From: a virus
Virus record (IMG/VR): IMGVR_UViG_3300028364_000127
Span: 1-26,469 of that record
Strand: one strand, 5' to 3'
Length of the DNA stretch: 26,469 nt
Part shown: in pieces, positions 3,501 to 19,752 of the stretch
Numbering within the stretch: the stretch's first letter is position 1
Layout: every line of letters begins with the position of its first letter
Notes under the pieces: generated by a model
What the model was told of the DNA's origin: nothing
Databases searched by the model: none
Seen by the model: only the letters and a program-made list of their open reading frames with translations
Made by a program: the position numbers and the translations under genes

Positions 3501-3527
3501 AAAAGGCCCCCAGATCGGGGGCCTTTT
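3501..3527. terminator. bidirectional rho-independent terminator
   Basis: A perfect 11-bp stem (3501-3511 with 3517-3527) closes a 5-base loop (AGATC). The arms begin with AAAA and end with TTTT, so a U-run follows the GC-rich stem on both strands. It lies between two convergent genes, the phosphoesterase ending at 3498 (+) and the dNTP hydrolase ending at 3550 (-), and would stop transcription from both sides. Confidence 0.93.
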
Positions 3528-10694: not shown

Positions 10695-11311
10695 GACTGC
10701 GCCACCATTGTCTGCTCGCAGCTGCCGCAGACCATGTGGCCGCCTGCCTTGAACCACGCGTTGAACTGGCAGTCGGGGCAGGTGTGCTTCACCTTGGACT
10801 TGTCCTGCTTCTTCTCGCCTGCACCCGCAGGAGGAGAGAACCACGACATGTCGAGATCGTCGCGGTCCAGCAGCTTGGCGCAGGCCACGGCGAACGGTCC
10901 ACCATCGACGATCATGTGTGTGACCTTGCGGCCCGTACGCTTGCCGCCCTCAGCGCCGGTGCTGGTGGGTGTCAGGCCCAGCTCGTCCATCTTCGCGGCC
11001 CAGAGCTTGCCGTGGCCGCTCTTTGGCACCTCGTTATTCTCGAAGTCCCAGTGGTGCGCCATCTCGTGGACCAGCGTGGACAGGACGACGGTCGGTGTCC
11101 GGCCCATCGTCTCGGGGTTCATGGCGATCTCGGCCAGCCTGCCCTCCTCGCCGTCAGTCTTGGCCCACTTGTCGGACCAGAAGTATCCATGCGCGTTCTT
11201 CTTGCGATGGACCAACAGCATCACCGGTGGCAGCTTGCTGCCGAACAGCTCGTCATTGAAAAAGTCGAAGGCGGTGTGAAGCGCGGCGTACATGGCGCGG
11301 GAGGGTGTCAC
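10691..11311 (-). CDS. SprT-like zinc metalloprotease
   Basis: A protein of 206 residues from a GTG start at 11311, chosen because AAAGGA lies at proper distance. The open frame continues upstream over the promoter region, without a ribosome binding site. The zinc site is H82-E83-x2-H86 (LVHEMAHHWD) with H100 in GHGKLWAAKM as third ligand, the pattern of SprT/Spartan proteases. The C-terminal zinc ribbon uses C178-x2-C181 and C195-x2-C198. Spartan-type enzymes degrade DNA-bound proteins and DNA-protein crosslinks. In a phage, removal of host proteins from DNA is conceivable. It begins a small operon that runs toward the nuclease and polymerase genes. Confidence 0.9.
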   Translation of the reverse strand: MTPSRAMYAALHTAFDFFNDELFGSKLPPVMLLVHRKKNAHGYFWSDKWAKTDGEEGRLAEIAMNPETMGRTPTVVLSTLVHEMAHHWDFENNEVPKSGHGKLWAAKMDELGLTPTSTGAEGGKRTGRKVTHMIVDGGPFAVACAKLLDRDDLDMSWFSPPAGAGEKKQDKSKVKHTCPDCQFNAWFKAGGHMVCGSCEQTMVAQS

Positions 11312-15011: not shown

Positions 15012-15303
15012 CACCGGCGAGTGGCTGGGCCAGTTCAAGAATGGCGACGGGCGGCTGGAGTTCGGAGCCCGATCTCCGGTGTTCTGGCGAGAGATGCGCT
15101 ACGTCAAGAAGGCGTGGCTGCACCACTGCGTGGCGGCGGGTTGGATCAGGCGCGGCATCACGATGCCGGGTGCAGGCGTGGTGTACCATCGTACGGAGAC
15201 GTTTCTCCACTGCCCCCGCGTACGGTTCAAGGACTTTACATTGACGGGTGGGATCGGTATGGTACCAGCAACGCCGTCTGATTTAGGGATTACCTTGACA
15301 TGA
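14974..15303 (+). CDS. hypothetical protein coupled to SNF2 helicase
   Basis: A 109-residue protein from the ATG at 14974 (GGGGGA upstream); it overlaps the end of the VRR-NUC gene by 38 bases. A further in-frame ATG at 14932 has no ribosome binding site, and 14995 is an alternative. The N-terminal part (VWMIEHADTGEWLGQFKNGDG) looks like a small beta sheet, and the middle contains aromatic and basic residues. Its TGA overlaps the helicase ATG (ATGA). No family recognised. Confidence 0.65.
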   Translation: MDTLQVWMIEHADTGEWLGQFKNGDGRLEFGARSPVFWREMRYVKKAWLHHCVAAGWIRRGITMPGAGVVYHRTETFLHCPRVRFKDFTLTGGIGMVPATPSDLGITLT

Positions 15304-16730
15304 GACCCAACAGCATACTGCGGCCCTCGCAAAGGGCACTGATGACGCAGATGGCCTACTTCCCCGACGGGATCGCGGTCATGGGCATGGGCGGTGGCAA
15401 GACCGCCGCCACGCTCTTCTCCATCGACGACTGCCTTGAGGAGGGCGACTACGATCACGCTTTCATCTTCGCGCCGCCCAACACTCTGCGCAACGCGTGG
15501 GCGCTGGAGCCAACCCGCTGGGAGGGTCTGTCAGACCTGAGCGTCGAGATACTGGACGGCTCGCCCGCCCAGCGTGAGGCGATACTGGCGCGCGCCGATG
15601 CTGACGTCTATGTGATGTCATCCGACATCAGCACGTGGCTTGTGAACCTGATGCAGAAGTGGAACAGGCGGAAGACGCCGATGTTCGATCTCAGCAGGGT
15701 GCACATCGTGATCGACGAGATCAGCAAGATGTCCAGCCCGCAGTCCAAGCGCGGCAACAAGATGCTGTGGCTGACCCGGCGCGCCGCCGGGACATGGGGG
15801 CTGACCGGCACGCCGCGACCCAACCGATACGAGGACCTGTTCCTGCCGATCAAGCTGGTCGGTGGCGAGAGCGTCTGGGGCCACAGCGGTTTCGACGACT
15901 GGCGGCGCGAGCTGTTCCGGCCCACCGATTACACGGCGCGGAACTGGGAGATACACGACTTCGCCGTCCCCATCGTCGAGAAGATCGCCAAGACGTTCAT
16001 GTTCTACGCGCCGCCCGACGACCTGCAGGTGCCAGAGGTGGTGACCACCGACGTGCCGGTCTACATGAACAGCGATCAGATTGCACACTACGAGATGATG
16101 CAGGAGACGCTGGTGGCCGAGGGCGTGATACCTGATCTCTATGGTGACGAGCTCAACGAGTGGCTGATCGAAGCCGGGAGCGCGGGTGTGGCCAGCGGCA
16201 AGCTGGTCCAGATCGTGCAGGGTTTCATATACGACACGGTGGGCAAAACCGTGGTGCATGTGTCGACCGCCAAGCTGGCGGCGCTGTACAAGCTGGACGA
16301 TGACCTGATGGGCTCGCCTGCGCTGCTGATGTACGGCCTGCTGGAAGAGAAGCGCCAGCTGGAGGGAATGTGCGTCGACAAAGGCTACCGGTATGCTGTC
16401 ATGGGCGACGGCGTCACAGCTGCGGCGAAGGATGCCGCCGTGCGCGACTGGATCAACGGCGATCTGGACCGCATCATCGCGCACCCGGCCAGCATGGGCC
16501 ACGGCACCGACGGCCTGCAGCATGGTGGCCACCACATCGTGTGGTATCATCCGACATGGTCCAGCGAGCAATACTTCCAGACCATCGCCCGGCTGGCGCG
16601 ACCCGGCCAGAAGCACGTGGTCCAGAACTACCGGCTGCTGGCGCAGGAGACGCTGGACCTCGTGAAGGTGCAGAGGGTGGCGCGGAAACGTGAGGAAGAG
16701 CTCGCGTTCATCGAGCGCATGGCAGACTAG
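15300..16730 (+). CDS. SNF2/DEAD-like superfamily 2 helicase
   Basis: A 476-residue superfamily 2 ATPase. Walker A is GMGGGKT (29-35), Walker B is D139-E140-IS, motif III region is GLTGTP (167-172) and the C-terminal lobe carries the QTIARLARPGQ arginine motif. The absence of other domains and the pairing with VRR-NUC is the standard phage arrangement, in which the protein likely unwinds or remodels recombination or replication intermediates. Both RecA-like lobes are complete. The ATG overlaps the previous stop. Confidence 0.93.
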   Translation: MRPNSILRPSQRALMTQMAYFPDGIAVMGMGGGKTAATLFSIDDCLEEGDYDHAFIFAPPNTLRNAWALEPTRWEGLSDLSVEILDGSPAQREAILARADADVYVMSSDISTWLVNLMQKWNRRKTPMFDLSRVHIVIDEISKMSSPQSKRGNKMLWLTRRAAGTWGLTGTPRPNRYEDLFLPIKLVGGESVWGHSGFDDWRRELFRPTDYTARNWEIHDFAVPIVEKIAKTFMFYAPPDDLQVPEVVTTDVPVYMNSDQIAHYEMMQETLVAEGVIPDLYGDELNEWLIEAGSAGVASGKLVQIVQGFIYDTVGKTVVHVSTAKLAALYKLDDDLMGSPALLMYGLLEEKRQLEGMCVDKGYRYAVMGDGVTAAAKDAAVRDWINGDLDRIIAHPASMGHGTDGLQHGGHHIVWYHPTWSSEQYFQTIARLARPGQKHVVQNYRLLAQETLDLVKVQRVARKREEELAFIERMAD

Positions 16731-16736
16731 GAGAGG

Positions 16737-16800
16737 TGCAGCCGGTGAGCGGTGTTACGGGAGGAGGAGAGCAACTCCCCATCGCTTCCAACCGGCTGCA
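16737..16800 (+). other. long nearly continuous hairpin upstream of primase-helicase (structured RNA candidate)
   Basis: Three stacked stems fold the 64-base stretch into one hairpin: a perfect 10-bp outer stem (16737-16746 with 16791-16800), an 8-bp middle stem with G-U pairs (16747-16754 with 16780-16787), and a 5-bp inner stem (16759-16763 with 16775-16779). Only a TTAC bulge on one side and CCA on the other interrupt it. The 11-base loop (16764-16774) is GAGGAGAGCAA, which contains a perfect Shine-Dalgarno-like core. No T-run follows, so it is not a standard terminator. Confidence 0.75.
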
Positions 16801-16819
16801 TCTACAACGTACATCACGT

Positions 16820-16834
16820 GGCGGGATGCCCGCC
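16820..16834 (+). other. small GC hairpin directly before the primase-helicase ribosome binding site
   Basis: A perfect 6-bp stem (GGCGGG with CCCGCC) with a 3-base loop ends immediately before AGAGGAG. Together with the large hairpin upstream it makes the leader heavily structured. It might limit ribosome access or insulate the ribosome binding site from the upstream hairpin. Confidence 0.55.
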
Positions 16835-16847
16835 AGAGGAGAATATG

Positions 16848-19295
16848 ATGACCGCCGTTAAAACTTTCAAGGTCCGTGAAGCGCACGACCAGCAGACCGC
16901 GATCCGGCTGCAGCTGCTGAAGAACGGATGGCGGCCCCTGCCGACTGCTGAGAAGGTGGCCTTCCAGAAGGGTTGGCCTGTCATGGACATCGACGAGGCC
17001 GCGATCAGGGACTGGCCACTGTTCAAGGCCGGGGGCGGTCGGTCGATACCTGCGGTGACGACCGCGATCCAGCTGCAGGGCACCATGCTGGCCATCGACG
17101 TGGACGTGAGCGATGGTAGCGTGGCAGGGGATATGCTGGCAATACTAGAAGACTGCTGCCCCGCCTTGGCGAGCGCGCCGATACGGGACAGCGGTGGCTC
17201 GAAGTTCATGCTGCTCTGCCGGACAGAGACGCCGTATGCGTTCTGGAAGACGCCGAAGTGGATCGACGAGAAGGGCGCGGACCACATGGTTGAGGTCTAC
17301 GGCGGCGCTGCCACGCGCTACTTCTCCTGCTACGGCCCCCACACCATCGGCGGCGTCAAGAAAGGCGCGTACGAGATCATCAAGGAATACCAGTGGGACG
17401 ACGGTGCTGGCAACCCGATGACCATGACACCCGCCGATCTGCCCCTGATCACGGAAGCGCAGATGTACGAGGCCATGCGCCTGATGTCCGACAGGCTCGC
17501 GGAGCAGGGCTGGACCAAGGATGAGCACAGCTATGCTGGCGAGGGCACCGCGTCCACCGTCTACGACCTGACCGATGACATGACGTTCCAGATGTCGCAC
17601 GGCGAGCTGCTGTCCTACCACGAGGCGATGGCGGCTGCCGCGTCCGGTGACAACCGCTGCTCGGCCACGTTTCTGGGGGAGCACACCGACACCATGACGC
17701 GGTGCAGGCTCACCTTGGTGGGCGACGCTGAGAACCCCGGTTTGATGGCCTTCGACCACAAGACGTGGACCACGCACTTCCCTCTGGCGTGGAAGCCGAA
17801 GCCGGTGAAGGAACAGGCGCAGGCCAGCGCCAAGGCGCTGGGCGCAGCGCTGAAGGCGCGTGGCGTGATAGAACCCCTTGTTGGCGCTGAAGACTGGGCG
17901 CAGGACCTGCTCGACAGCCTGATGGACGAGTATGTCCACGTCGCCCGCACCGACATGTTCCACCCCCGGTCGGAGCCCTTCACCAAGATCAAGAAGACAG
18001 CGGTGTTGAACGGCAACAACCAACGCTTCACCTACCAGAAGGAAAAGGACGACGGCACGTTCGCGGAGGCCTCGACGACCATCGGCAAGGCGTTCATGAT
18101 GGCCGACTATGACAAGGCGTCACGTGTGGGTTACGATCCACGGCAGGGCATGTTCTACGGGCGCGACAAGCCGGGGATGACGGGCGAGTTCCTGAACGCG
18201 TTCGACGGTCTGCCGGAGCTGGATGACGCCGACCCGCGCATGGTCGAGCTGATGCGTGATCACTTCCTGCCGCACCTGATCCCCGATCCTGCGGAGCTGC
18301 AGTTCTTCCTCGACTGGCTGACAGTCAAGTACCGCAACCCAGAGAAGCGTCACTGCGCGATCCTGATGCTGGCGGACAACGTCAGCGGCACCGGGCGCGG
18401 CACGCTGTTCTCGGCGCTGTTGGCCCTGTTCGGCAAGCACGCCAGCAAGCAGGAGGAGAGCAGCATCGTCAGCCGGTTCAATGGCTATCTGGCGTCGAAC
18501 GTGCTGGTGCTGATGGATGAGGTGGGCTCAGGCGATTATGGCGACCGCGACACCACCTATCACCACCTCAAGAACCTCGTCGATCCTGTGCAGAATGTGG
18601 TCAAGCTCGAAGAAAAGTTTCAGGACAGCTACTCCTGCGAAACCTTCGCCTCGTTCGTCTTCGCCACCAACCGCAGCAACGGCATCCAGCTGCGCGCGGA
18701 GGATCGTCGCTTCGCGGTGCTCACCAACGGCACGCAGCTGGACATGGTCAGGGCCGCTTGGTCCAACGAGCTGATGGACAGGGTGCGCAAGGATGGCCAC
18801 AGCGGCACAGCGGCGGCCCTGAGGCACATCATCGGCGAGCACGTGGTGCAGGCCTCCGAGAAACTGCTGACGACGCCGCCACACTTCGCTGGCCGGGCGC
18901 ACATGATCCGCTCGTCGGCCAGTGTCGCCGACGAGGCCATCGACGAGATCGGCGAGAGTATCAGGAGCGGGCAGGACGGCTTCTACGTGTGGCGTGTGAA
19001 GGACTTCAAGGCCAAGGTTGTCGAGCAGATGGATGCTGGCAGCAACACGTCGGCGGCGGCCCGGCGCGCGATCCAAGAGCTCACCGGCGCACGTGCCGAA
19101 GCGGCGGGTCTGTGGTATCTGCGGAAGCAGAAGGTCGGGGTTAAAATGGTCGATGGTGAGGCCAGAGAACTGATGCAAACTGACGTCGTGACGAACGCGC
19201 CGGGGACATTTTTGGACACCTCGTGGGAGCTGCGCGCCAAGGCTATAAAAAGTACTAGCGGTGGCAAACGGTTGCAGATCGTGGCTAGTACCTGA
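16848..19295 (+). CDS. primase-helicase (PrimPol-like N-terminus plus VirE/DUF5906-type ATPase)
   Basis: This 815-residue protein likely primes and unwinds DNA for replication. The N-terminal region resembles prim-pol domains, with the acid pair D84-V-D86 (LAIDVDV), SGGSKFMLL (115-123) and EVYGGAATRYF. The central ATPase has Walker B D557-E558 (VLMDEVG) and the FATNRSN...RAEDRRF sensor region of phage D5/VirE-like helicases. The P-loop reads SGTGRGTL (513-520), with Arg in place of the usual Lys at 517. Shine-Dalgarno AGAGGAG favours ATG 16848 (16845 is adjacent). Earlier GTG at 16752 lies in the structured leader. Confidence 0.88.
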   Translation: MTAVKTFKVREAHDQQTAIRLQLLKNGWRPLPTAEKVAFQKGWPVMDIDEAAIRDWPLFKAGGGRSIPAVTTAIQLQGTMLAIDVDVSDGSVAGDMLAILEDCCPALASAPIRDSGGSKFMLLCRTETPYAFWKTPKWIDEKGADHMVEVYGGAATRYFSCYGPHTIGGVKKGAYEIIKEYQWDDGAGNPMTMTPADLPLITEAQMYEAMRLMSDRLAEQGWTKDEHSYAGEGTASTVYDLTDDMTFQMSHGELLSYHEAMAAAASGDNRCSATFLGEHTDTMTRCRLTLVGDAENPGLMAFDHKTWTTHFPLAWKPKPVKEQAQASAKALGAALKARGVIEPLVGAEDWAQDLLDSLMDEYVHVARTDMFHPRSEPFTKIKKTAVLNGNNQRFTYQKEKDDGTFAEASTTIGKAFMMADYDKASRVGYDPRQGMFYGRDKPGMTGEFLNAFDGLPELDDADPRMVELMRDHFLPHLIPDPAELQFFLDWLTVKYRNPEKRHCAILMLADNVSGTGRGTLFSALLALFGKHASKQEESSIVSRFNGYLASNVLVLMDEVGSGDYGDRDTTYHHLKNLVDPVQNVVKLEEKFQDSYSCETFASFVFATNRSNGIQLRAEDRRFAVLTNGTQLDMVRAAWSNELMDRVRKDGHSGTAAALRHIIGEHVVQASEKLLTTPPHFAGRAHMIRSSASVADEAIDEIGESIRSGQDGFYVWRVKDFKAKVVEQMDAGSNTSAAARRAIQELTGARAEAAGLWYLRKQKVGVKMVDGEARELMQTDVVTNAPGTFLDTSWELRAKAIKSTSGGKRLQIVAST

Positions 19296-19306
19296 AAAAC
19301 AGCCAG

Positions 19307-19339
19307 CCGGGGAGTTTTTGAGAAACTGCGATACCCCGG
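19307..19339. other. hairpin A in AT-rich region
   Basis: CCGGGG (19307-19312) pairs with CCCCGG (19334-19339). Inside it AGTTT (19313-19317) pairs with AAACT (19323-19327) around a TTGAG loop, with GCGATA bulged. It begins 12 bases after the primase-helicase stop. No T-run follows on the + strand, so it is a weak terminator at best. Confidence 0.6.
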
Positions 19340-19460
19340 TAAAAAACGAGGAAAACCGTTCACTATCAACTACTAAGGTCTTATAGCTACAGGGGACTTA
19401 TATATTCAAACCCATATGTGAAAGAGTAATAGAGAGATAGTATAAGGGGTTATAAGTAGG

Positions 19461-19466
19461 TATAAT
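19461..19466 (+). promoter_or_regulatory. TATAAT -10-like element, weak promoter candidate
   Basis: A perfect TATAAT lies about 86 bases before the ATG at 19552. The hexamer 17 bases upstream (TAGTAT) does not resemble TTGACA, so the -35 is poor. Given the high AT content a match of this quality could be chance. Confidence 0.3.
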
Positions 19467-19476
19467 GTTTATATAA

Positions 19477-19500
19477 GGGGGTTGAGAATTAAAAACCCCC
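19477..19500. other. hairpin B in AT-rich region
   Basis: GGGGGTT (19477-19483) pairs with AACCCCC (19494-19500) across a 10-base AT-rich loop. It is followed by GGTAAAA, as is hairpin A. It may act as a terminator or a protein-binding structure. Confidence 0.6.
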
Positions 19501-19551
19501 GGTAAAACACCGCGACGACTGCTACGAATTTTCAACGGTTGGAGAGACGAG

Positions 19552-19752
19552 ATGAGACGATATTTACCCAGCTGGTACGCGCTGATGAAGACCATCGCGC
19601 TACACTTCGCTGTCGACGATGGGCGCGATGATCAAACGGTTGCCCATGTCATCCTGCCAGACCTCAATGAGTTCACACAGGTACCGGTATCTGAAGACAA
19701 ATCGTGGCGCAAGTTCTGCGGCCACCCAACCAACCCGAGGAGACGCAAATGA
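19552..19752 (+). CDS. small hypothetical protein before terminase
   Basis: This 66-residue protein has Shine-Dalgarno GGAGAGACGAG before ATG 19552. Its sequence contains aromatic and acidic residues (WYALMKTIALHFAVDDGRDD) and ends in a basic tail (PTNPRRRK). Its stop overlaps the next ATG (ATGA). It is the first gene of the rightward packaging block. No recognised family. Confidence 0.7.
   Translation: MRRYLPSWYALMKTIALHFAVDDGRDDQTVAHVILPDLNEFTQVPVSEDKSWRKFCGHPTNPRRRK

Follow-up and report, generated by a model that had tools for sequence, protein, structure and literature searches.

In the phage studied here, a long hairpin of three stacked stems lies in the gap that separates the helicase gene from the primase gene. 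By its predicted fold it is a real, strong RNA structure, of a general kind already known and apparently specific to its lineage. The sequence analysed, referred to below as the window, comes from an uncultivated tailed phage; the virus record is 26,469 bases long, with a mean GC content of 62%. By analogy with phage T7, we tentatively put forward as the leading explanation that the hairpin is an intercistronic mRNA element acting in cis, most likely one for RNase III-type processing or for stability.

Structure, position and stability of the hairpin

The features of the region are as follows.

15300-16730, + strand: SNF2-type DNA helicase gene (Pfam SNF2-rel_dom, phrog_62), with its stop codon TAG at 16728-16730
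16734-16803, + strand: whole hairpin, 70 nt, the span used for folding energy and for z among tiled windows
16734-16746/16791-16803, + strand: basal stem, 13 bp
16747-16754/16780-16787, + strand: middle stem, 8 bp
16755-16758, + strand: bulge TTAC, 4 nt, on the 5' side of the hairpin
16759-16763/16775-16779, + strand: upper stem, 5 bp
16764-16774, + strand: apical loop GAGGAGAGCAA, 11 nt, with GAGGAGA at 16764-16770
16788-16790, + strand: bulge CCA, 3 nt, on the 3' side of the hairpin
16820-16834, + strand: small second hairpin GGCGGG-ATG-CCCGCC, directly 5' of the primase Shine-Dalgarno (SD) sequence
16836-16842, + strand: primase SD GAGGAGA, mostly unpaired in the predicted fold
16845-19295, + strand: DNA primase gene with a DUF5906 domain (phrog_1156), starting at ATG 16845 or 16848

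The initial annotation had described stems of 10, 8 and 5 bp over 64 bases, with two small bulges and an 11-base loop. That description proved exact, and the structure extends further, to 16734-16803, with AGG/TCT (including one G-U) lengthening the basal stem from 10 to 13 bp and bringing the total to 26 stem pairs (13+8+5). The 6-bp GC hairpin said to end just before the primase ribosome-binding site is present as well, with AGAGGAG right after it. The two genes, both on the + strand, are separated by 114 bases; the hairpin begins 3 nt past the helicase stop and ends about 33 nt short of the primase SD, or about 42 nt upstream of the primase start, and terminase, portal, protease and capsid genes lie downstream of the primase. 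An N-terminal extension of the primase from an in-frame GTG at 16752 was rejected, as it has neither an SD at the proper distance nor a homologous N-terminus.

The hairpin folds at -43.1 kcal/mol, whereas dinucleotide shuffles give -23.6 +/- 3.4 (z -5.70), and 0 of 200 shuffles reached its stability. This z is the minimum among 3300 tiled 70-nt windows of the + strand, and by raw energy the hairpin ranks second among all 64-nt windows; the span named in the initial annotation, 16737-16834, gave -51.0 (z -5.00). In a 401-base context the basal pairs have probabilities of 0.93-1.00, and a competing pairing, in which 16896-16915 would take up the 5' arm, was rejected, the local hairpin prevailing with P 0.999. 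Perfect 10-bp inverted arms are expected by chance at 2.7 seeds per shuffled genome; what is remarkable is the stacking of three stems, not the 10-bp arms alone. No Rfam family matched in the window at the gathering threshold.

The structure is also strongly biased toward one strand. The RNA of the - strand reaches -31 kcal/mol (z -3.0), because three G-U pairs of the sense RNA turn into A-C oppositions there. This asymmetry speaks for the hairpin acting in the sense transcript rather than as a cruciform, and with it for an RNA function over a DNA function.

Coding features do not explain the hairpin, as had been proposed from the outset. The sole open reading frame (ORF) spanning it runs across the gap from GTG 16745 to TAA 16861 (38 codons), with GGAGAGG upstream. 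Its codon score, -0.59 bits per codon, falls below the -0.14 that marks the first percentile of 36-codon stretches from real genes of the phage. Its GC3 is 0.46, compared with 0.70-0.86 in the phage's genes, and it was rejected as a gene on these two measures.

Relatives and searches for further copies

Six records carry a related primase and a readable leader, with primase identities of 38-39% (L005), 40% (L113), 41% (L115, which lies in an alphaproteobacterial MAG), about 28% (L009) and 27% (L002 and L003). A further record, L004, has an identical terminase and portal and stops short of the leader, and was left out of the leader comparison. A homologous hairpin at the primase leader was found in 0 of the 6 relatives. 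In L005 and L113, small overlapping genes are packed up to the primase start, with no hairpin at that place, and in L115, L009, L002 and L003 there is just a short GC-rich hairpin before the primase gene, terminator-like in some. Local alignments of the leader with the corresponding regions of the six did not exceed those with shuffles, and no fold in those regions came near the window hairpin in z.

The initial annotation had named the absence of the structure from homologous phages with the same gene pair as evidence against it, and such absence is what we find at about 40% protein identity. It rules out a conserved primase-leader motif, and it is still compatible with a lineage-specific element.

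The hairpin occurs once in its own record. Searches of viral contigs, phages, plasmids and, from the class of L115, 385 genomes gave short or chance matches only. Viral contigs, phages, plasmids and about 580 genomes belonging to the class or kin of L115 yielded no homologous hairpin. Nor does the hairpin behave, in its own record and in the phages, plasmids and 385 genomes covered, as a dispersed repeat of the REP/REPIN-like palindrome kind. A stem-pattern search of viral contigs returned 100 stretches, which were judged to be chance or coding palindromes and none of which had the hairpin's interior.

Some of the structures met in these records deserve mention in their own right. In L005, a 12-bp inverted repeat at 729-815 closes a branched fold with loops GGAGGAA and CGGAGATAA in a small ORF between helicase and primase; it was dropped as an analogue, since its z is only -3.2, it lies inside an ORF, and its sequence does not resemble the window hairpin. 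Among the stretches from viral contigs, one coding family (L013, L017, L018 and others) has 9-bp inverted arms, GCAGCCGGT/ACCGGCTGC, that always span 68 bases, which looks like conserved protein sequence rather than RNA. Finally, L002 and L003 are recorded as phages of the cyanobacteria Microcystis and Nostoc, and their primase and helicase genes, like those in the alphaproteobacterial MAG (L115), are related to those of the GC-rich window phage; the true hosts of L002 and L003 may be worth checking.

Perhaps the hairpin has no function, and arose by chance, or was recently acquired, as an inverted sequence within a gap that tolerates it. Consistent with this, it is unique to the window phage among the sequences searched, its relatives manage without it, and chance alone yields 10-bp inverted arms. 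We nevertheless regard absence of function as unlikely, given a z of -5.7 that no other tiled + strand window matches, three stacked stems, a stem kept intact in a dense phage genome, and an asymmetry that favours RNA pairing.

A possible DNA element or origin of replication

Primase or initiator genes often flank origins, and the hairpin adjoins the primase gene and folds as single-stranded DNA too (z -4.3). It could accordingly be imagined as a DNA element, whether a replication origin, a cruciform or a primase-helicase binding site, but we give this very little weight. Its pairing includes G-U and the other strand is much weaker; moreover, the region is GC-rich (0.61) with no iterons nearby, which makes an origin at the hairpin unlikely.

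An AT-rich non-coding island is, in addition, conserved right behind the primase gene in the window (19296-19552) and in L005 (3411-3557), L113 (4319-4560) and L115 (8455-8620). Its minimum 150-base GC is 0.35-0.39 in genomes of about 0.59-0.65 (0.35 in the window), and it contains short inverted repeats and A/T runs, with CCCCGGTAAAA repeats in the window. The island is a better candidate than the hairpin for a replication origin or promoter region. The earlier suggestion of a DNA cruciform near an origin thus has against it both the strand asymmetry and this island, which lies beyond the other end of the primase gene.

Possible control at the level of transcription

That the hairpin is not a standard terminator had already been noted, and such a reading is indeed unlikely: its tail, TCTACAACG, has no T-run, and there is no terminator-like match at the site. 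Elsewhere in the window, at 3501-3527, a canonical bidirectional terminator, AAAAGGCCCCCAGATCGGGGGCCTTTT (AAAAGGCCCCC-AGATC-GGGGGCCTTTT), stands between convergent genes.

A broader role in transcription, be it as a pause, as an attenuator, as a terminator that is only partial or depends on a factor, or as an RNA of the put kind acting on RNA polymerase to modify it, strikes us as rather improbable. The short hairpins before the primase gene in four of the relatives would fit such a role, as would the likeness to put RNAs, which are about 70 nt long with two stem-loops (PMC9378689), the window leader also having two hairpins. However, the hairpin has no T-run in a phage that does possess a canonical terminator, and no terminator-like prediction falls at its site. 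Put elements, furthermore, lie near early promoters, and none was detected here; a sigma-70 scan of the + strand just upstream of the hairpin gave no promoter-like site, and phage promoters may differ from sigma-70.

The loop and possible control of translation

The loop had been described as Shine-Dalgarno-like, and the resemblance turns out to be to the phage's own ribosome-binding consensus. GAGGAGA occurs 13 times in the window, counting both strands, against 3.8 expected, and is the phage's main ribosome-binding motif: 7 of the 13 copies, including that of the primase (16836), lie 2-7 bases before the start codons of plausible genes. Four copies fall within coding frames, and the copy at 10831, on the strand opposite a gene, has an ATG 10 bases on. 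The loop copy (16764) is the sole intergenic GAGGAGA with no ATG, GTG or TTG 2-12 bases downstream, and the loop is predicted to be single-stranded save for one isolated inner pair. This start-less motif could be a ribosome landing or decoy site, or the chance outcome of a purine-rich loop.

Translational control of the primase is the main rival to the RNase III reading, and a possible explanation, if a weaker one. The loop ribosome-binding site or the stem would be bound by the 30S subunit (landing or decoy) or by a replication protein of the phage, which would act autogenously on primase translation. The abundance of GAGGAGA before start codons, the singular loop copy and the predicted accessibility of the loop all point in this direction, and the hairpin ends about as far upstream of the primase start as the operator hairpin of the T4 DNA polymerase, gp43, lies from its start codon (about 40 nt; PMC3014915). 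Yet the primase SD lies outside the hairpin and is largely unpaired in the predicted fold, whereas a gp43-type operator includes or occludes the ribosome-binding site. T4-type operators are also small (18 nt) and contiguous with that site, and the closest relatives have no hairpin before the primase gene. The more specific idea that the loop is a landing or decoy site beside the helicase stop, with 30S binding or ribosome traffic setting the translation or stability of the primase message, seems to us distinctly improbable.

Proposed processing or stabilization of the mRNA

We return to the reading that we tentatively prefer, an RNase III-type processing or stability element. One sense transcript would run through the helicase and primase genes, and the hairpin would form in that RNA. 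Host RNase III may then cut the long, twice-bulged duplex of about 26 bp, or perhaps the duplex merely blocks exonucleases. The 3' end of the helicase mRNA would thereby be separated and protected, and the primase mRNA would keep its own structured 5' end and an SD that is predicted to be open. The structure, strand bias, non-coding status and position are observed or computed, and the open SD is a feature of the predicted fold; transcription through both genes, cleavage or protection, and any effect on expression are inferred.

At an RNase III site, the sense transcript is expected to form at least about 20 bp of stacked duplex between cistrons, and the hairpin has 26 pairs in 70 nt between genes on the same strand. 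Its bulges are one-sided (4 nt and 3 nt), in contrast to the 4/5-nt internal loop of the T7 site R1.1, and many RNase III substrates have no asymmetric internal loop. T7 carries several RNase III sites; in the window record, only one such hairpin was seen. The single example, the one-sided bulges and the lack of any sign of conservation in six relatives all count against the RNase III reading. On the other side stands R1.1, the model RNase III substrate. Located between genes 1 and 1.1, it is an intercistronic hairpin of 60 nt whose internal loop is asymmetric, and RNase III from an alphaproteobacterium cleaves it (PMC6121014); one relative of the window phage, L115, lies in an alphaproteobacterial MAG. 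For E. coli, cleavage by RNase III is reported to leave adjoining cistrons with hairpins that stabilise them (PMC5371410).

For the present, the hairpin is a real but isolated structure. Its phage group is poorly sampled, and the collections searched contain only distant relatives. Should the hairpin prove functional, it would add to the cases in which structured intercistronic RNA separates the expression of neighbouring phage replication genes. The start-less ribosome-binding site in its loop permits a specific test of the loop apart from the stem.

Comparison with known systems

Phage mRNAs are known to contain large intercistronic hairpins as elements, so the initial remark that no element of this form has been described was too strong. 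We do not assign the hairpin as a family member to the RNase III sites, the T4 gp43 operators, the put RNAs or the terminators; rather, it shares features with each. Like an intrinsic terminator, it is GC-rich and sits right behind a stop codon, but it has a long bulged stem, an 11-nt loop and no T-run. With the put RNA of HK022 it shares a scale of about 70 nt, two adjacent stem-loops and a place in a phage leader; put, however, lies downstream of early promoters, whereas the window hairpin has no evident promoter and no Rfam match. The T4 gp43 operator likewise belongs to a replication gene and places a hairpin about 40 nt before its start codon, but that hairpin has 18 nt and a UAAC loop, in an operator that reaches over the ribosome-binding site, and the window hairpin is 70 nt with an SD-like loop and a separate ribosome-binding site. 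Compared with the T7 R1.1 class, to which no sequence homology is expected, the window hairpin is much more GC-rich, has one-sided bulges and is a single example; like the members of that class, it is an intercistronic hairpin of about 60-70 nt that lies 5' of the next SD on the sense mRNA, its stems stacked and its unpaired bases asymmetric.
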